A DNA stretch of 11,005 bases from Methanomassiliicoccus sp. (GTDB lineage Archaea; Thermoplasmatota; Thermoplasmata; Methanomassiliicoccales; JACIVX01), in the NCBI GenBank assembly GCA_020725985.1, contig DYTM01000026.1, positions 1 through 11,005 of the forward strand. The letters are read 5' to 3'. Below are positions 149-10,350 of this stretch, piece after piece. The position numbers and the translations under genes are program-made. Each line of letters opens with the position of its first letter. Position 1 is the stretch's first letter. The notes beneath the pieces are model-generated. The model was given only the letters and a program-made list of their open reading frames with translations. It did no database searches and was not told where the DNA came from.

Positions 149-640
149 CTAGACCTTGGAGAACTTGTCACGGTAGAGGGCCCAGATGATATCCCCCTTC
201 GTGACGATACCGACGATCTTGCCGTGTTCCAGGACAGGCACCCGGTTGACGTCCTTCTTCATCATGCTGTCGATCGCCTCCATGATGTTCATCTCCGGGG
301 TCACGGTGAGGGCCTCGGTGGTCATGATCTCCCTCACCTGCTTCGCTGAGACCTCCTTGTAGATGCTGGCGAGTTTCTCGTCCTTGAGTATCTCCTCGAA
401 CGGAAGCGCAAGGAACGAAGTCGACGGGAACTCGTTGCGGACCTCGTCCTGGAGCCTCTTCACGAAGGCGAGGATGTCCGTCTCGCTGAGGACCCCGATC
501 AGCCTTCCCTCGTCGTCCACCACCGGCGCCCCCGAGATGCCGTTGACTGCGAAGGTAACGGTCGCGTCATGAAGGGTCGCAATGCCCTTGATCGTAACCA
601 CCGTTGAGGTCATCACATCTCGGACCTGCAGATCGGCCAT
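149..640 (-). CDS. two-CBS-domain protein
   Basis: A 163-residue stand-alone CBS pair (Bateman module). CBS1 covers about residues 4-60 and CBS2 about 100-157. Each ends in the usual strand-turn pattern: Gly-Val-Leu-Ser-Glu-Thr-Asp near 49-55, and Gly-Ile-Val-Thr-Lys-Gly-Asp near 144-150. Such pairs usually bind adenosine nucleotides (AMP, ATP, SAM) and act as energy or ligand sensors; the ligand and partner here are unknown. No catalytic or membrane segment is present. The frame stays open upstream to 772, but that extension is Pro/Arg-rich and not CBS-like. I chose the ATG at 640 because the fold begins right after it (Ala-Asp-Leu-Gln-Val-Arg-Asp-Val-Met), a TATA-like CTTAAGAC lies about 27 bases upstream, and a GGAG precedes it by a few bases. 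It points away from the tRNA. Confidence 0.9.
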   Translation of the reverse strand: MADLQVRDVMTSTVVTIKGIATLHDATVTFAVNGISGAPVVDDEGRLIGVLSETDILAFVKRLQDEVRNEFPSTSFLALPFEEILKDEKLASIYKEVSAKQVREIMTTEALTVTPEMNIMEAIDSMMKKDVNRVPVLEHGKIVGIVTKGDIIWALYRDKFSKV

Positions 641-662
641 GTGGCTCCAATTGAGCGGAGGC

Positions 663-674
663 GTCTTAAGGTTT
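663..674 (-). promoter_or_regulatory. TATA-like box of the CBS gene
   Basis: On the minus strand the sequence AAACCTTAAGAC is centred about 27 bases before the ATG at 640. That spacing fits an archaeal TATA box driving a leaderless or nearly leaderless transcript. It also supports the ATG at 640 over the longer open frame reaching 772. Confidence 0.4.
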
Positions 675-787
675 TTGCAGCCTCCTACCCCAGGAAGAGT
701 TTCTGGCCTCGGTGCTTCTCCCCGGCTTCGAGCAAATCCGGATGGCCGGCTCGGGATCGAATAAGTTCGCAAAAGGTCAGGGTGGGG

Positions 788-834: not shown

Positions 835-842
835 TTTATTTA
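835..842 (+). promoter_or_regulatory. TATA-like box of the tRNA-Lys gene
   Basis: TTTATTTA is centred about 28 bases before the first base of the tRNA at 867, inside the most AT-rich part of the spacer. This matches archaeal TATA spacing. A second AT block, CATATATG at 849-856, is too close to serve as the box. The same promoter probably also drives the GTPase gene that follows. Confidence 0.5.
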
Positions 843-866: not shown

Positions 867-963
867 GGGCCCGTAGCTCAGCTAGGTAGAGCAATCGGCT
901 CTTAACCGATGGGTCGAGGGTTCGAAAGATTCTTCACAGAATCCGAGCATCCCTCCGGGCCCG
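867..963 (+). tRNA. trnK: tRNA-Lys (anticodon CTT) with a 23-nt intron in the T-loop (927-949)
   Basis: The exons fold into a complete cloverleaf of 74 nt. The acceptor stem is GGGCCCG (867-873) with CGGGCCC (956-962). The D stem is GCTC/GAGC (876-879, 889-892). The anticodon stem is ATCGG/CCGAT (894-898, 906-910) with loop CTCTTAA and anticodon CTT at 901-903. The variable loop is GGGTC, the T stem is GAGGG/CCCTC (916-920, 951-955), and the discriminator is G963. No CCA is encoded, as in many archaea. The T-loop is interrupted after TTCGAA. Removing 927-949 restores the canonical loop TTCGAAT. The gene ends 18 bases before the next ATG. Lysine identity is read from the anticodon. Confidence 0.93.
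927..949 (+). other. tRNA intron at T-loop position 59/60 with a strict bulge-helix-bulge
   Basis: The exon-side helix is the T stem itself (GAGGG/CCCTC). Next comes a four-pair central helix, TTCG (921-924) with CGAG (944-947), containing one U-G pair. Three-base bulges AAA (925-927) and CAT (948-950) flank it on opposite strands, and an intron hairpin GATTC-TTCACA-GAATC (928-943) closes the structure. Cutting after the second base of each bulge releases exactly 927-949 and leaves a standard seven-base T-loop. This 3-4-3 geometry is the form recognised by archaeal tRNA splicing endonuclease. Confidence 0.88.
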
Positions 964-981: not shown

Positions 982-1746
982 ATGAAGAATATCTATTTCA
1001 TCGGGACTGCGGGAAGCGGGAAGAGCTCGCTCGCGCTCGCGTTCCACGAATGGATGGAGCTACAGGGGCTCGACTCGATTCTGGTGAACCTCGATCCGGG
1101 GGCTGAGGCTATTCCCTATGTCCCGGACGTGGACATCCGGGACTGGATCAGGCTCAGCGAGATCATGCGCGAGTACGCGCTGGGCCCGAACGGCGCGCAG
1201 ATCGTGTGCGCAGACCTCATCGCCCTCAACATGAAGGAGGTTGTTTCGGTCGTCGAGGGGTTCAAGACGAACTTCGTTCTCATCGACACCCCTGGCCAGA
1301 TGGAGCTGTTCGCGTTCCGGCAGTCGAGCTCGGTCGTCATCGAGAGCCTCGGCAAGGACGATTCTTTCCTCGTCTTCCTTTCCGATCCTCAGCTCTCCAA
1401 GACCCCGGAGGGCTTCGTGTCGGACCTGATGCTCTGCGCCATAACGCACTTCCGCTTCTCGATCCCGATCCTCAACGTCCTCTCCAAGATGGACCTCCTC
1501 ACCGACCAGGAGGTCGAGGCGGTCCTGGCATGGTCCCGGGACCCGTACGAGCTGTACAGTGCGATAGGGGAGAGACAGGGAACCTCCCAGAGCGTGCTGA
1601 GCATCGAGATTCTCAAGGCTCTGGAGAACATCGGCATGTATCGGGAGCTCACCCCCGTCTCGGCCGAGATGCCCTACGGCATGGAGGACATCTACAACGC
1701 GATCCAGCAGTCTTTCGAGGGCGGGGAAGATCTCAGGCCGGACTGA
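982..1746 (+). CDS. GPN-loop GTPase
   Basis: A 254-residue P-loop GTPase of the GPN family, the archaeal relatives of eukaryotic GPN1-3, which help assemble or import RNA polymerase II. The archaeal role is less clear. Visible motifs are the P-loop Gly-Thr-Ala-Gly-Ser-Gly-Lys-Ser (8-15), Asn-Leu-Asp-Pro-Gly (36-40), the signature Gly-Pro-Asn (68-70), Asp-Thr-Pro-Gly-Gln (102-106), Ser-Lys-Met-Asp (168-171, in place of Asn-Lys-x-Asp) and Ser-Ala-Glu (227-229). Length is normal for archaeal members. The ATG at 982 is fixed by the P-loop starting only seven residues in. There is no clear ribosome binding site. The ATG lies 18 bases after the tRNA, so co-transcription with the tRNA is likely. It runs tail to tail with the next gene with no bases between the stop codons. 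Confidence 0.93.
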   Translation: MKNIYFIGTAGSGKSSLALAFHEWMELQGLDSILVNLDPGAEAIPYVPDVDIRDWIRLSEIMREYALGPNGAQIVCADLIALNMKEVVSVVEGFKTNFVLIDTPGQMELFAFRQSSSVVIESLGKDDSFLVFLSDPQLSKTPEGFVSDLMLCAITHFRFSIPILNVLSKMDLLTDQEVEAVLAWSRDPYELYSAIGERQGTSQSVLSIEILKALENIGMYRELTPVSAEMPYGMEDIYNAIQQSFEGGEDLRPD

Positions 1747-6711: not shown

Positions 6712-6731
6712 TATTGTCCTTTTGAACAATA
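6712..6731. promoter_or_regulatory. inverted repeat in the grpE-dnaK-dnaJ promoter region
   Basis: TATTGT (6712-6717) and ACAATA (6726-6731) are perfect arms around an 8-base centre. The repeat lies 39-58 bases before the ATG at 6770 and overlaps the only AT-rich sequence that could be the TATA box (around 6710-6716). A regulator bound here would block initiation. It does not match the bacterial CIRCE element, which has longer 9-bp arms and a different sequence. Confidence 0.45.
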
Positions 6732-6769
6732 GTTCGAGCCGATGTCCCGGAATCGAGGTGGATGATGCC

Positions 6770-7321
6770 ATGAACGACGAAGGGGGTGCAACGGTCCCGC
6801 CCGAGGCGACGCCGGGGCGCGCGGAGTGCCAGGAAGAGATGGACAGGCTTGAGAAGGCGGTCGAGGAGGCGAGGAAGGAGCTCGACAGGCAGACCCTGAT
6901 GGCAAAGGAGTACCTCGAGGCCGCGAAGCGCATCCAGGCCGATTTTGACAATCACAAGAAGCGCATCCAGAGGGAGTGGGAGGAGTACGTCAAGCTGGCG
7001 AACGAGAAGCTTGTGCTCGATCTCCTCCCGACAATCGATGATTTCGAGCGGGCTCTGGAGGCGGATTGCAGCCCGGAGGAACTTCGGACGGGGCTGAGGA
7101 GCATTCACGATAACCTATTATCATTGCTCAAATCCTACGGACTGAGGGAGATACCCTCGAACGGCATGTTTGACCCGGAGTACCACGAGGTCCTCTCCAC
7201 GGGCGAGGGGGAGGACGGCGAGATACTCGAGGTCTACCAGAAGGGCTACTTCCTCGGGCCGAAGGTGCTGAGGCATTCGAAAGTCAAGGTAGCGAAGAAG
7301 AGAGGTGATGACGATGTTTAG
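6770..7321 (+). CDS. grpE: GrpE, nucleotide exchange factor of DnaK
   Basis: A 183-residue cytosolic protein that releases ADP from DnaK. A charged N-terminal tail is followed by a long helix/coiled coil for dimerisation (about 20-80), a short helical bundle holding [11 protein letters not shown] (85-95), and the C-terminal beta domain. The beta domain carries the family signature near 131-143 ([12 protein letters not shown]) and Tyr-Phe-Leu-Gly-Pro-Lys-Val-Leu-Arg (160-168). The frame opens at a TTG (6722), but I chose the ATG at 6770. It is preceded by GAGGTG (6755-6760), and the upstream residues are not GrpE-like. A GTG at 6758 is possible. The stop overlaps the dnaK start by eight bases, so translation of the two is probably coupled. 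It is the first gene of grpE-dnaK-dnaJ. Confidence 0.95.
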
Positions 7322-9173
7322 AATAGTCGGGATTGATCTGGGAACGAGCAACTCGGCGGCCGCGGTGATGGAGGCGGGGAGACCGGCCATCATTCCGAGC
7401 GCCGAGGGAACGAGTCTCGGGGGCAAGGCGTTCCCCTCCTACGTCGCATTCGCGAAGGACGGGCAGCTGCTGGTCGGTGAGCCGGCGAAGAGGCAGGCGG
7501 TCTCGAACCCCGAGGCGACGATTACTGCGATCAAGAGGAAGATGGGAACTGACTACAAGGTGAAGGTCCAGGGTAAGGAGTACACCCCGCAGCAGATCTC
7601 CGCTTTCATCCTTCAGAAGATCAAGAGGGACGCGGAGGCCTACATCGGAAGCGAGGTGACCAAGGCGGTCATAACGGTGCCTGCGTACTTCAACGATAAC
7701 CAGAGGCAGGCGACGAAGGATGCCGGGGCGATTGCGGGGCTGGAGGTCGTGAGGATAATCAACGAGCCCACGGCGGCGGCCCTCGCCTACGGCCTCGACA
7801 AGTCCGGAAAAGAGCAGAAGATCATGGTCTTCGACCTCGGCGGCGGAACGCTCGACGTCACGATCATGGAGTTCAGCGAGGGCGTTTTCGAGGTGATCTC
7901 GACCAACGGGGACACCCAGCTCGGCGGGACGGACATGGACGAGGTGATGGTCAAGTACGTCGCTGACAATTTCAAGAGAGACACGGGCATCGACCTAACG
8001 AAGGATAAAATGGCCCTGTGGAGGGTGAGGGAGGCCTGCGAGAAGGCGAAGATCGAGCTCTCGACGACGATGTCGACCGACATCAACCTCCCATTCATCA
8101 CCGCAGATGCCACAGGACCAAGGCACCTTGCCATGACCCTGACGAGGGCGAAGCTGGAGGAGCTCGTCAATCCGATCATCGAGAAGTGCAAGGGGCCGAT
8201 GATCACCGCGATGGACGACGCCCACTTGAGCCCCGACAACATCGATACGGTCATTCTCGTCGGCGGGCCGACGAGGATGCCGATCGTGCAGAGGCTGGTG
8301 GAGAGGATCGTCGGAAAGAAGATACAGAGAGGCATCGACCCGATGGAGTGCGTCGCCATGGGGGCGGCGATTCAGGGAGCAGTTCTGGCTGGAGAGGTCA
8401 AGGATGTCCTCCTTCTCGACGTCACCCCCCTCTCGCTCGGGATCGAGACGCTCGGGGGCATCGCGACGAGGCTCATTGAAAAGAACACGACGATTCCGAC
8501 GCGGAAGAGCCAGATTTTTACCACCGCAGCGGACAACCAGACGAGCGTCGAGATCCATATCATTCAAGGCGAAAGGGAGATGGCCTCGGCGAACACCTCC
8601 CTCGGGCGCTTCCATCTCATGGGCATTCCGCCCGCTCCGAGGGGCGTGCCCCAGATCGAGGTGACCTTCGACATCGATGCCAACGGCATCATGAACGTCT
8701 CTGCGAAGGATCTAGGCACCGGGAAGCAGCAGGGGATCACCATCACAGCGAGCACCAAGCTCTCGAAGGAGGAGATCGAGAAGATGGTCTCCGAGGCGCA
8801 GCAGTTCGCGGAGCAGGACAAGAAGCAGAAAGAGAAGGTCGAGATGATCAACCAGGCCGACGCGATGATCTACAACGCGAACAAGACCGTCGAGGAGCTC
8901 GGGGACAGGGTGACGAAGGAGGAGAAGGAGAGGATCGAGAAAGGTATCGAGGAGCTTCGCACCGCCATGTCCGGCGGAGAGTTCTCCGCGATCAAGGCGA
9001 AGATGGACGCCCTCACCAAGGAGCTGTACCAGCTCTCCTCCCGGATCTACCAGGCCGCCTCCCAGCAGAAGGGCGAGGGGCAGCAGGGGCAGCCGCCGGG
9101 CGGGGAGGGAGGAGGCAAGGGGGACGGAGAGGGCTTCGTCGACGCCGACTACCACATTGTCGACGACAAGTGA
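7314..9173 (+). CDS. dnaK: DnaK, Hsp70 chaperone
   Basis: A 619-residue Hsp70. The ATPase domain (1-360) shows Ile-Asp-Leu-Gly-Thr-Ser-Asn-Ser (7-14), [10 protein letters not shown] (173-182) and Val-Gly-Gly-Pro-Thr-Arg-Met-Pro (316-323). The linker is [10 protein letters not shown] (364-373). The substrate domain runs to about 480, followed by a helical lid and a Gly/Gln-rich tail (586-606) ending in an acidic segment. Residues 74-92 are short: the insertion of about 24 residues seen in Gram-negative DnaK is absent, as in Gram-positive and archaeal forms. I chose the ATG at 7314 because GAGGTG (7302-7307) is six bases upstream. The GTG 7305 and ATG 7308 lie inside or against that site. Confidence 0.97.
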
Positions 9174-9195
9174 GCATGAATTCGGATGAGCTGAG

Positions 9196-10350
9196 ATGGC
9201 GAAAAGGGATTACTACGATGTGCTGGGCGTCGGCAGGAACGCCACAGTCGACGACATAAAGAAAGCGTACCGCAACCTCGCCAGACAGTATCATCCGGAC
9301 GTGACGAAGGAGGACCGGAAGAAGGCCGAGGAGAAGTTCAAGGAGATCTCCGAGGCGTACGAGGTCCTCGCGGATGGCGACAAGCGGAAGCTCTACGACT
9401 CCTACGGCCACGCCGGCGTCAGCGGCCAATTCAGGGAGGGACAGTTCACCTGGAGCGACTTTTCGCACATGTCCGACCTCCGGGACATCTTCTCCGATTT
9501 CGGGATAGGATTCGGGGGAATGGGGGGCGGAGACAGCATCTTCGACATGATCTTCGGCCGGGGGAACGGCATGTACCAGAGGGCGAGGCAGGGGCCGAGG
9601 AGAGGGCAGTCGCTTCGCTATGACATCGAGATCGGCCTCGAGGAGGCCGCCTCCGGCTTCGCCAAGGAGATCGCCATCCCGCGCTCGGTCAAGTGCGAAG
9701 CCTGCGGGGGGACCGGAGCGAAGGACGGGAAGGTGACGACCTGCACTGCCTGCGGGGGAAGAGGGCAGAAGAGCACCGTCGAACGGAAGGGGTATAGCCA
9801 GTTCGTTTCGATTACCACTTGCCCCAAGTGTCGCGGGACCGGCAGGATCGCCACCGAGGCCTGCCCCAAATGTGGGGGAGAGGGTGTGACTTTCACCACC
9901 TCCAGGATCAACGTCACGATCCCGAAGGGGATTGAGGACGGGACGAGGCTTCGAATCCCCGGAGCGGGGGAGGCGGACGCGGGCGGGGGCCCTCCGGGAG
10001 ATCTATTCGTCGTTGTGCATGTGAAGGAGCATGAGCTCTTCAAGCGGGACGGCCCCGACATCTGGATAGAGTGGCCTATTACCTTCCCTCAGGCCGCGCT
10101 CGGCACCGAGATCGAGGTGCCGACCATAGGTGGGAAGGCGCGGCTGAAGATCCCCGCTGGGACAAAAGGGGCTTCGGTCTTCAGGCTTAAGGGTACCGGA
10201 CTCGAGAGGATGGACGGCGAGGGGAAGGGGGACCAGTACGTCCGGGTGAGGATCGAGGTCCCGCAGAAGCTGACGCACCTGCTTAAGAGGTTCGCGGAGC
10301 TCGAGGGCGAGCCAAAAGGCCGGTTCTCCAAGTTCAAGAAGGCCCGCTGA
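9196..10350 (+). CDS. dnaJ: DnaJ, Hsp40 co-chaperone (type I)
   Basis: A 384-residue type I Hsp40 that delivers substrates to DnaK and stimulates its ATPase. The J domain (1-70) has the catalytic His-Pro-Asp at 33-35. A Gly/Phe region follows (about 98-125), less pure than in E. coli. Four zinc-binding CxxCxGxG repeats begin at Cys167, Cys183, Cys209 and Cys223. The C-terminal beta domains continue to about 365 ([12 protein letters not shown] is the familiar entry to CTD1), and the tail is basic. All key residues are present. The start lies 22 bases after dnaK, with only a weak ribosome site (GAGCTGAG), which suggests translation following dnaK in the same message. Confidence 0.97.

Follow-up and report, generated by a model that had tools for sequence, protein, structure and literature searches.

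A putative T-loop intron at position 59/60 of a Methanomassiliicoccales tRNA-Lys(CTT) gene and its counterparts in Lys and Arg tRNA genes of Thermoplasmata

Position 59/60, within the T loop, is among the archaeal tRNA intron positions listed in the available portion of a 2014 review (PMC4090602), where non-canonical and multiple introns are tied to two-subunit splicing endonucleases and euryarchaea with α4 or α2 enzymes are said to have single canonical introns. Korarchaeum is called the only archaeon with an α2 enzyme and non-canonical introns in the available text of PMC4033280. This contrast between enzyme and intron types was never absolute, because euryarchaeal exceptions are already in print: a table of the latter paper places Methanopyrus and Methanothermobacter among the euryarchaea with multiple-intron tRNAs, and non-canonical introns are described in three thermophilic euryarchaeal methanogens (PMC3218864). 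In addition, tRNAscan-SE 2.0 includes one intron model built partly from euryarchaeal non-canonical introns and, according to the accessible text, found 673 non-canonical introns in 217 archaeal genomes (PMC8450103); some of the introns described below may have been detected automatically by this program before. The main text of that paper, taken without its supplement, does not contain the string "Thermoplasm". Regarding the open literature, which leaves out most subscription papers and supplements, no report on such introns in Methanomassiliicoccales or Thermoplasmatota appeared among the matches listed.

The window analysed here, a stretch of 11,005 nucleotides, comes from a draft genome (G000; 1.51 Mb in 285 contigs, 74% complete) of the Methanomassiliicoccales, an order placed in class Thermoplasmata. 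A tRNA-Lys(CTT) gene occupies positions 867-963 of the forward strand, and its T loop is split at 59/60 by a 23-nt insert, 927-949. Exon 1 (867..926), assigned from the sequence and from ARAGORN on the spliced form, comprises the acceptor 5' strand (867-873), D arm, anticodon arm with the CTT anticodon at 901-903, variable loop, T-stem 5' strand (916-920) and the T-loop bases TTCGAA (921-926). Exon 2 (950..963), read from the sequence, comprises T60, the T-stem 3' strand (951-955), the acceptor 3' strand (956-962) and the discriminator G963, and the CCA end is not encoded. The stem halves are perfect and stand in normal order, the 5' half upstream of the 3' half, and a candidate archaeal TATA-like box, TTTATTTA, can be read by eye upstream on the same strand at 835..842. 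ARAGORN called no tRNA in the whole window, and the Rfam model RF00005 gave only a partial match, 874-935, ending within the insert at 29.1 bits against a cut-off of 29. Once 927-949 are deleted, the remaining 74-nt RNA is named tRNA-Lys(ctt) by ARAGORN, while the unspliced form gives no tRNA. The T-loop intron at 59/60 proposed in the sequence-only reading is therefore correct in its coordinates, and the gene appears to carry a removable archaeal intron, the splicing itself being judged from sequence.

The predicted structure agrees with this assignment. In the minimum-free-energy (MFE) fold of 916-955, the T stem of 5 bp is followed by a 4-bp UUCG/CGAG helix with one G-U pair (921-924 with 944-947) and then by the intron hairpin, with AAA bulged on the 5' side and CAU on the 3' side. 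The inner hairpin has 6 bp (928-933 with 938-943, closed by the loop 934-937), and the intron ends with the helix strand CGAG (944-947) and the first two bases of the 3' bulge. Both folds confirm what had been proposed, a strict 3-4-3 bulge-helix-bulge with the T stem as its outer helix (core 921..950, forward strand), and exactly one such motif occurs in the whole pre-tRNA. The motif geometry predicts cuts within the bulges 925-927 and 948-950, after 926 and after 949. An identical mature RNA would be expected if 926-948 were excised instead of 927-949, so that the exact junction 926/949 is placed by the bulge geometry. The fold of 916-955 has z = -2.75, with 3 of 200 shuffles equally good; in that of the full pre-tRNA (867-963) the T arm keeps its shape, at z = -4.0 with none of 200 shuffles equal, and the D and anticodon arms do not form a cloverleaf. 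When the letters of the intron were shuffled 200,000 times, 0.019% of the shuffles retained the 4-bp helix together with at least 4 bp of inner helix.

The comparative support for a putative intron seems stronger than these fold statistics, as an insert of 22-23 nt is found at the same place in all six genomes of the family (f1). The central helix has 4/4 pairs in 60 of the 65 distinct Lys sequences whose T-stem 3' strand was found after the insert, a count in which the 3' border was chosen among possible T-stem matches so as to favour the motif, and insert length among these 60 runs from 19 to 76 nt. Ten Lys sequences lack a clean 4-pair motif: L171 and L183 have 3/4 pairs, L056 and L100 are intronless genes that were mis-scored, and the others are L191, L192, L195, L198, L200 and L203. 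For the covariation analysis, 35 rows were picked from the 60 sequences with full central helix and T stem (alignment A3, replacing earlier T-loop alignments with misoriented or shifted rows), and the 100% pairing of those two helices is thus a product of selection, not evidence. The intron hairpin was no selection criterion, and there 77.5% of cells are paired, with two-sided changes at all five pairs; a shift of one or two bases in many of the Lys(TTT) hairpins lowers this figure. The whole structure reaches a covariation score of 0.423 against a shuffle mean of 0.164 (none of 500 shuffles reaches it), and structures slid along A3 score 0.057-0.189.

Removal of the insert restores a tRNA in 18 of 20 Lys(CTT) genes with the motif, as judged by ARAGORN; of the two failures, L035 is truncated where its contig ends, and L210 looks further interrupted. 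The expectation that simple gene finders would miss this gene held for the present locus and not in general, as two of the 20 (L034, L041) are named Lys already in unspliced form. With the ARAGORN intron option off, removal of the T-loop insert alone gives Lys(ttt) in 4 of 40 Lys(TTT) genes, a low recovery that is expected because a D-loop insert remains in place.

The Lys pattern was searched in 61 genomes. Within the family f1, three of the five other genomes match the Methanomassiliicoccales MAGs LCB019-061, OWC_0006 and OWC_0007, with the same tRNA and flanks. Beyond it, the Lys(CTT) insert is present in G008 (family f4) and in 2 of 15 genomes of family f6 (G043, G028), the other 13 genes being intronless, as are the five Lys(CTT) genes found in f3 and the 24 Lys matches inspected in f2 (8 further f2 matches were left out). 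When named genomes were scanned for Lys(CTT) carrying the motif, 21 contigs were recovered, some of them from Lokiarchaeota, Hermodarchaeota, Aenigmatarchaeota and Woesearchaeota. Among the contigs of these Asgard and DPANN groups, L190, L196, L207, L199 and L202 show the 4-pair motif and yield Lys(ctt) once spliced in silico, and L191, L192, L195, L200 and L203 are without a clean motif call.

Regarding the surroundings of the gene, a GTPase gene lies downstream (982..1746, forward strand); its best NCBIfam models are PRK13768 GTPases, below curated cut-offs, and from these models we take the name GPN-loop for the product. Upstream, a divergent gene for a CBS-domain protein (149..772, reverse strand) comes from the open-reading-frame list, with CBS-type matches below cut-off. 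When 22 Lys(CTT) loci were compared across f1, f4 and f6, the GTPase gene followed the tRNA at 16 (4 of them partial, at sequence ends), and the CBS gene was found at 15, the present window included and G043 and G001 not; two loci, L043 and L046, have neither. The neighbourhood is largely common to loci with and without the intron. In the present window the tRNA and the GTPase gene are 18 nt apart, close enough that both may belong to one transcript; the spacing is 18-21 nt in the remaining five genomes of f1, and in G043 it is about 255 nt. Farther along the window, at 6722-10350, a thermosome gene is followed by consecutive GrpE-like, DnaK and DnaJ-like genes; the thermosome and DnaK were identified by NCBIfam model matches, the other two by eye.

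The second Lys isoacceptor is interrupted as well. A motif search in 147 genomes of the order matched 37, of which 32, the present genome included, have a T-loop-interrupted Lys(TTT) after curation; by our own count, nine of the 32 also have an interrupted Lys(CTT). Matches in G065, G066, G080 and G092 were left out as not tRNA-like, together with G039 and one of two in G042, both judged from the printed match. In the present genome, the Lys(TTT) gene (G000:C147:1593-1641; L161/L262) has inserts in both D loop and T loop. Among 60 distinct Lys(TTT) sequences with enough upstream sequence, in which a D-loop insert was called by an over-long D arm, 48 have both inserts, one (L227) has the T-loop insert only, and 11 have neither. 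Thus, 48 of the 49 with an interrupted T loop also have the D-loop insert, and the 11 uninterrupted genes all belong to family f2; the shared absence suggests that both introns were lost there in one event, e.g., by replacement with an intronless copy. The D-loop intron has a looser motif than the T-loop one: as read by eye, the 5' side is a 3-nt bulge, the 3' site lies in an internal loop and not in a pure bulge, and a CUAGG/CCUAG helix is accompanied by AG opposite AAA. At the level of the class, 71 of 400 genomes matched, chance matches included, and tRNA-like Lys matches occur also in families f9, f10, f11, f13, f14 and f16. The two Lys introns of G189, in Lys(CTT) and Lys(TTT), are identical at 24 of 30 bases, which suggests copying between these genes.

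The same motif recurs in tRNA-Arg. Screening 22 genomes with a covariance model built on the T-loop motif (R1) produced 39 matches, spread over 20 of the genomes; 28 fall at known Lys genes and the other 11 all in tRNA-Arg genes (8 TCT, 2 CCG, 1 TCG, read by eye), five of which have an extra insert at the anticodon. In the whole order, screened under stricter filters, 76 of 147 genomes had at least one match, and the 88 matches comprise 39 known Lys genes, four Arg genes already read and 45 new ones. Twenty of the new matches were read, yielding 15 Arg(TCT), 4 Lys(TTT) and one cut by a contig end, which still shows T arm and acceptor strand. In total, 31 matches outside the known Lys set were read, and every one falls in the T arm of a tRNA: 26 of Arg, 4 of Lys and 1 cut off. 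The euryarchaeal setting proposed for the gene is supported, and the picture of an isolated oddity of a kind known mainly from Thermoproteales is not: the whole family keeps the intron, both Lys isoacceptors and Arg tRNAs have such introns across the order and class, and Lys(CTT) counterparts with complete motif exist in named Asgard and DPANN contigs.

Other interruptions were met in the near-complete genome G001, where the tRNA model finds 40 genes and the motif search adds Lys(TTT), 41 in all. The T loop is interrupted only in the two Lys genes among these 41, and D-arm inserts occur in Thr(GGT), Thr(CGT), Ala(CGC) and Val(TAC) (isotypes by eye; the last two are L111 and L112). Neither the tRNA model nor the motif search detected Trp, Leu(CAA), Leu(TAG), Arg(CCG) or Arg(TCT) in it, and further interrupted genes may be hidden there. 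Separately, a D-loop insert of tRNA-Thr(CGT) is present in L011 (G000), L080 (G001) and L122 (G028), that is, in three genomes of two families; by eye it forms a strict-looking bulge-helix-bulge, and ARAGORN misnames all three genes. Inserts at the anticodon, the canonical position, were also noticed in G000 in Asn, Met, Tyr, Val, Ser and Glu tRNAs (L008, L013, L015, L017, L021, L026; isotypes by eye).

The history of these introns allows two readings. They could be real introns and yet recent, independent gains in each lineage rather than a single old inherited set, a plausible account that we nevertheless lean against. In genus g14, the Lys(CTT) intron is present in one of six genomes only (G043), and the downstream GTPase gene is found at least in part in all six; because this neighbourhood is shared, the intron was gained or lost at an apparently orthologous site. 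The inner intron sequences also differ between families, and Thermoproteales introns are reported as transposing in the accessible part of PMC4090602. Against separate gains stand the unbroken presence in the family f1, the joint occurrence of both introns in nearly all interrupted Lys(TTT) genes, and the sequence of the Lys(CTT) introns, which in f1, f4 and f6 have the ends AGRTT...CCGAAYA in common (once CCGAGCA, once CCGAATT) and are unlike the Lys(TTT) introns alongside them in each genome.

That the gene is a pseudogene, its T arm broken by a chance insertion while another Lys(CTT) gene is used, is highly improbable. The failure of ARAGORN on 867-963 and the incompleteness of the draft would allow it, but the stem halves are perfect, the insert lies at the same position throughout the family, and the intron hairpin covaries. 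Moreover, a second, intronless Lys(CTT) gene, the finding that the sequence-only reading had set against its own proposal, was not detected by an exact-match pattern in G000 (74% complete) or in the five other family members, which include G001 (97% complete) and G003 (96%). It is equally hard to believe that the insert is retained in a working tRNA with an enlarged T arm, as might be argued from the two unspliced genes that ARAGORN accepts. T-loop bases take part in D-loop docking, and here they would be occupied by the 4-bp helix; in addition, the endonuclease motif recurs while insert length varies. A permuted tRNA is ruled out by the normal order of the halves, and an assembly error by the six family assemblies and by the Arg T-loop introns of G014, G026 and G035, each a single-contig genome.

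A removable intron calls for a splicing machinery, and the present genome encodes one splicing endonuclease reading frame with two PF01974 repeats. A single frame of this kind was found in all 16 genomes tested, including two of f14 and one of f2. In the C-terminal repeat of the G003 protein, Tyr, His and Lys, which we take to be the catalytic triad of the splicing endonuclease, align with those of Archaeoglobus fulgidus 1r0v, and the G000 protein has the same C-terminal segment. The G003 protein matches the two-repeat EndA of A. fulgidus (1r0v, 2gjw), with its best match in 5x89, a Methanopyrus structure (PMC6379350, available part). By its predicted domain organisation, the host endonuclease is of the single-chain, two-repeat α'2 architecture and probably acts as an α'2 homodimer, in line with the homodimer-type enzyme anticipated for this genome. 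RtcB was found in all five genomes examined. In G028, RtcB matches fall in two pieces within one 947-aa frame (G028:C12:107459-110110), as for an intein-like insert.

We thus regard it as very likely that the insert is a removable T-loop intron processed by endonuclease and RtcB, and part of a recurrent set in Lys and Arg tRNAs of Thermoplasmata. The T stem, the UUCG/CGAG helix and the intron hairpin would fold into the strict bulge-helix-bulge, the two-repeat endonuclease would cut after 926 and after 949, and RtcB would join the exons, restoring the T loop UUCGAAU. Only the spliced tRNA-Lys(CUU) would then be functional, and T-loop modification and D-loop/T-loop docking would be delayed until splicing, because the intron ties up T54-G57 in a helix.

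It had also been proposed that the strict geometry fits a strict enzyme; the geometry stands, and the inference is weakened by the looser D-loop intron in Lys(TTT) of the same genome. The α'2 enzymes of A. fulgidus and Thermoplasma are listed as narrow in specificity, and A. fulgidus EndA removes a bulge-helix-loop intron at 37/38 from full-length pre-tRNA, according to the available part of PMC6379350. A looser D-loop site in an α'2 lineage is therefore unusual, yet possible. More tentatively, and with doubt outweighing conviction, it can be suggested that the T-loop introns of Thermoplasmata (in Lys UUU, Lys CUU, Arg UCU and some Arg CCG/UCG, serving AAR and AGR-type codons) are an old set that has been inherited together, that the α'2 enzyme has a range wider than the strict motif, because the looser D-loop intron of Lys(UUU) must also be removed, and that splicing is a compulsory early checkpoint, because the intron hides T-loop bases. 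If true, splicing would gate folding, modification and end trimming of these Lys and Arg tRNAs.

T-loop introns can hide Lys and Arg tRNA genes from ordinary gene finders. A 2014 comparative paper detected no tRNA-Lys in Methanomassiliicoccus luminyensis and, in its available text, blamed missing sequence (PMC4153887). In G028, both Lys genes are present and both are interrupted. This genome is very probably that of M. luminyensis, as its two orc1/cdc6 genes lie together on contig 21, on opposite strands and about 68 kb apart, as published for CAJE01000021; both genes also share one contig in 3 of 5 control genomes (G031, G013, G010), with other contig numbers. Its G+C content, 59% over 55 kb sampled, is close to the published 60.5%. 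Against this identification, the species was absent from the named-genome Lys(CTT) scan, which also lacked four of the other eight genomes of the order with the gene. T-loop introns probably explain the reported absence of tRNA-Lys in M. luminyensis. Two different pyrrolysyl-tRNA-synthetase-like reading frames (L301 and L302, on C4 and C23) were also observed in G028.

Compared with described systems, the introns reported here share position, bulge-helix-bulge logic and short length with the known archaeal 59/60 introns. The latter are concentrated in Crenarchaeota and Nanoarchaeota in the available portion of PMC4090602, whereas the present ones belong to Thermoplasmata with a single-chain two-repeat enzyme and lie mainly in Lys and Arg tRNAs. 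The multiple-intron tRNAs of Thermoproteales likewise have introns in D loop, anticodon loop and T loop, and two per gene are seen here in Lys(TTT) and some Arg genes; however, the Thermoproteales enzyme is (αβ)2 and not α'2, and introns per genome are fewer here, as counted in the one near-complete relative G001. Methanopyrus and Methanothermobacter are also euryarchaeal, with non-canonical or multiple introns (PMC4033280, PMC3218864), but both are thermophiles, and the Methanopyrus enzyme is (αβ)2 (PMC6379350), unlike the α'2 enzyme of this lineage. The permuted tRNAs of Thermofilum and Cyanidioschyzon join at the same T-loop junction, 59/60 (PMC3218864), whereas the halves found here in normal order define an intron. 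Atabeyarchaeia and Freyarchaeia also combine non-canonical positions and multiple introns outside Crenarchaeota; they are Asgard archaea in which 92-95% of tRNA genes are interrupted, as given in the accessible text of PMC11291895. The contrast between enzyme types gains a large further exception in an order of Thermoplasmata that combines two-repeat enzymes with T-loop, D-loop and double introns, and the proposal that enzyme type and intron diversity co-evolved becomes testable in lineages that include cultured methanogens. The unexpected part, with its bearing on enzyme specificity and on tRNA genes absent from annotations, is that such introns recur among the Lys and Arg tRNAs of Thermoplasmata, the 59/60 position itself being already known.
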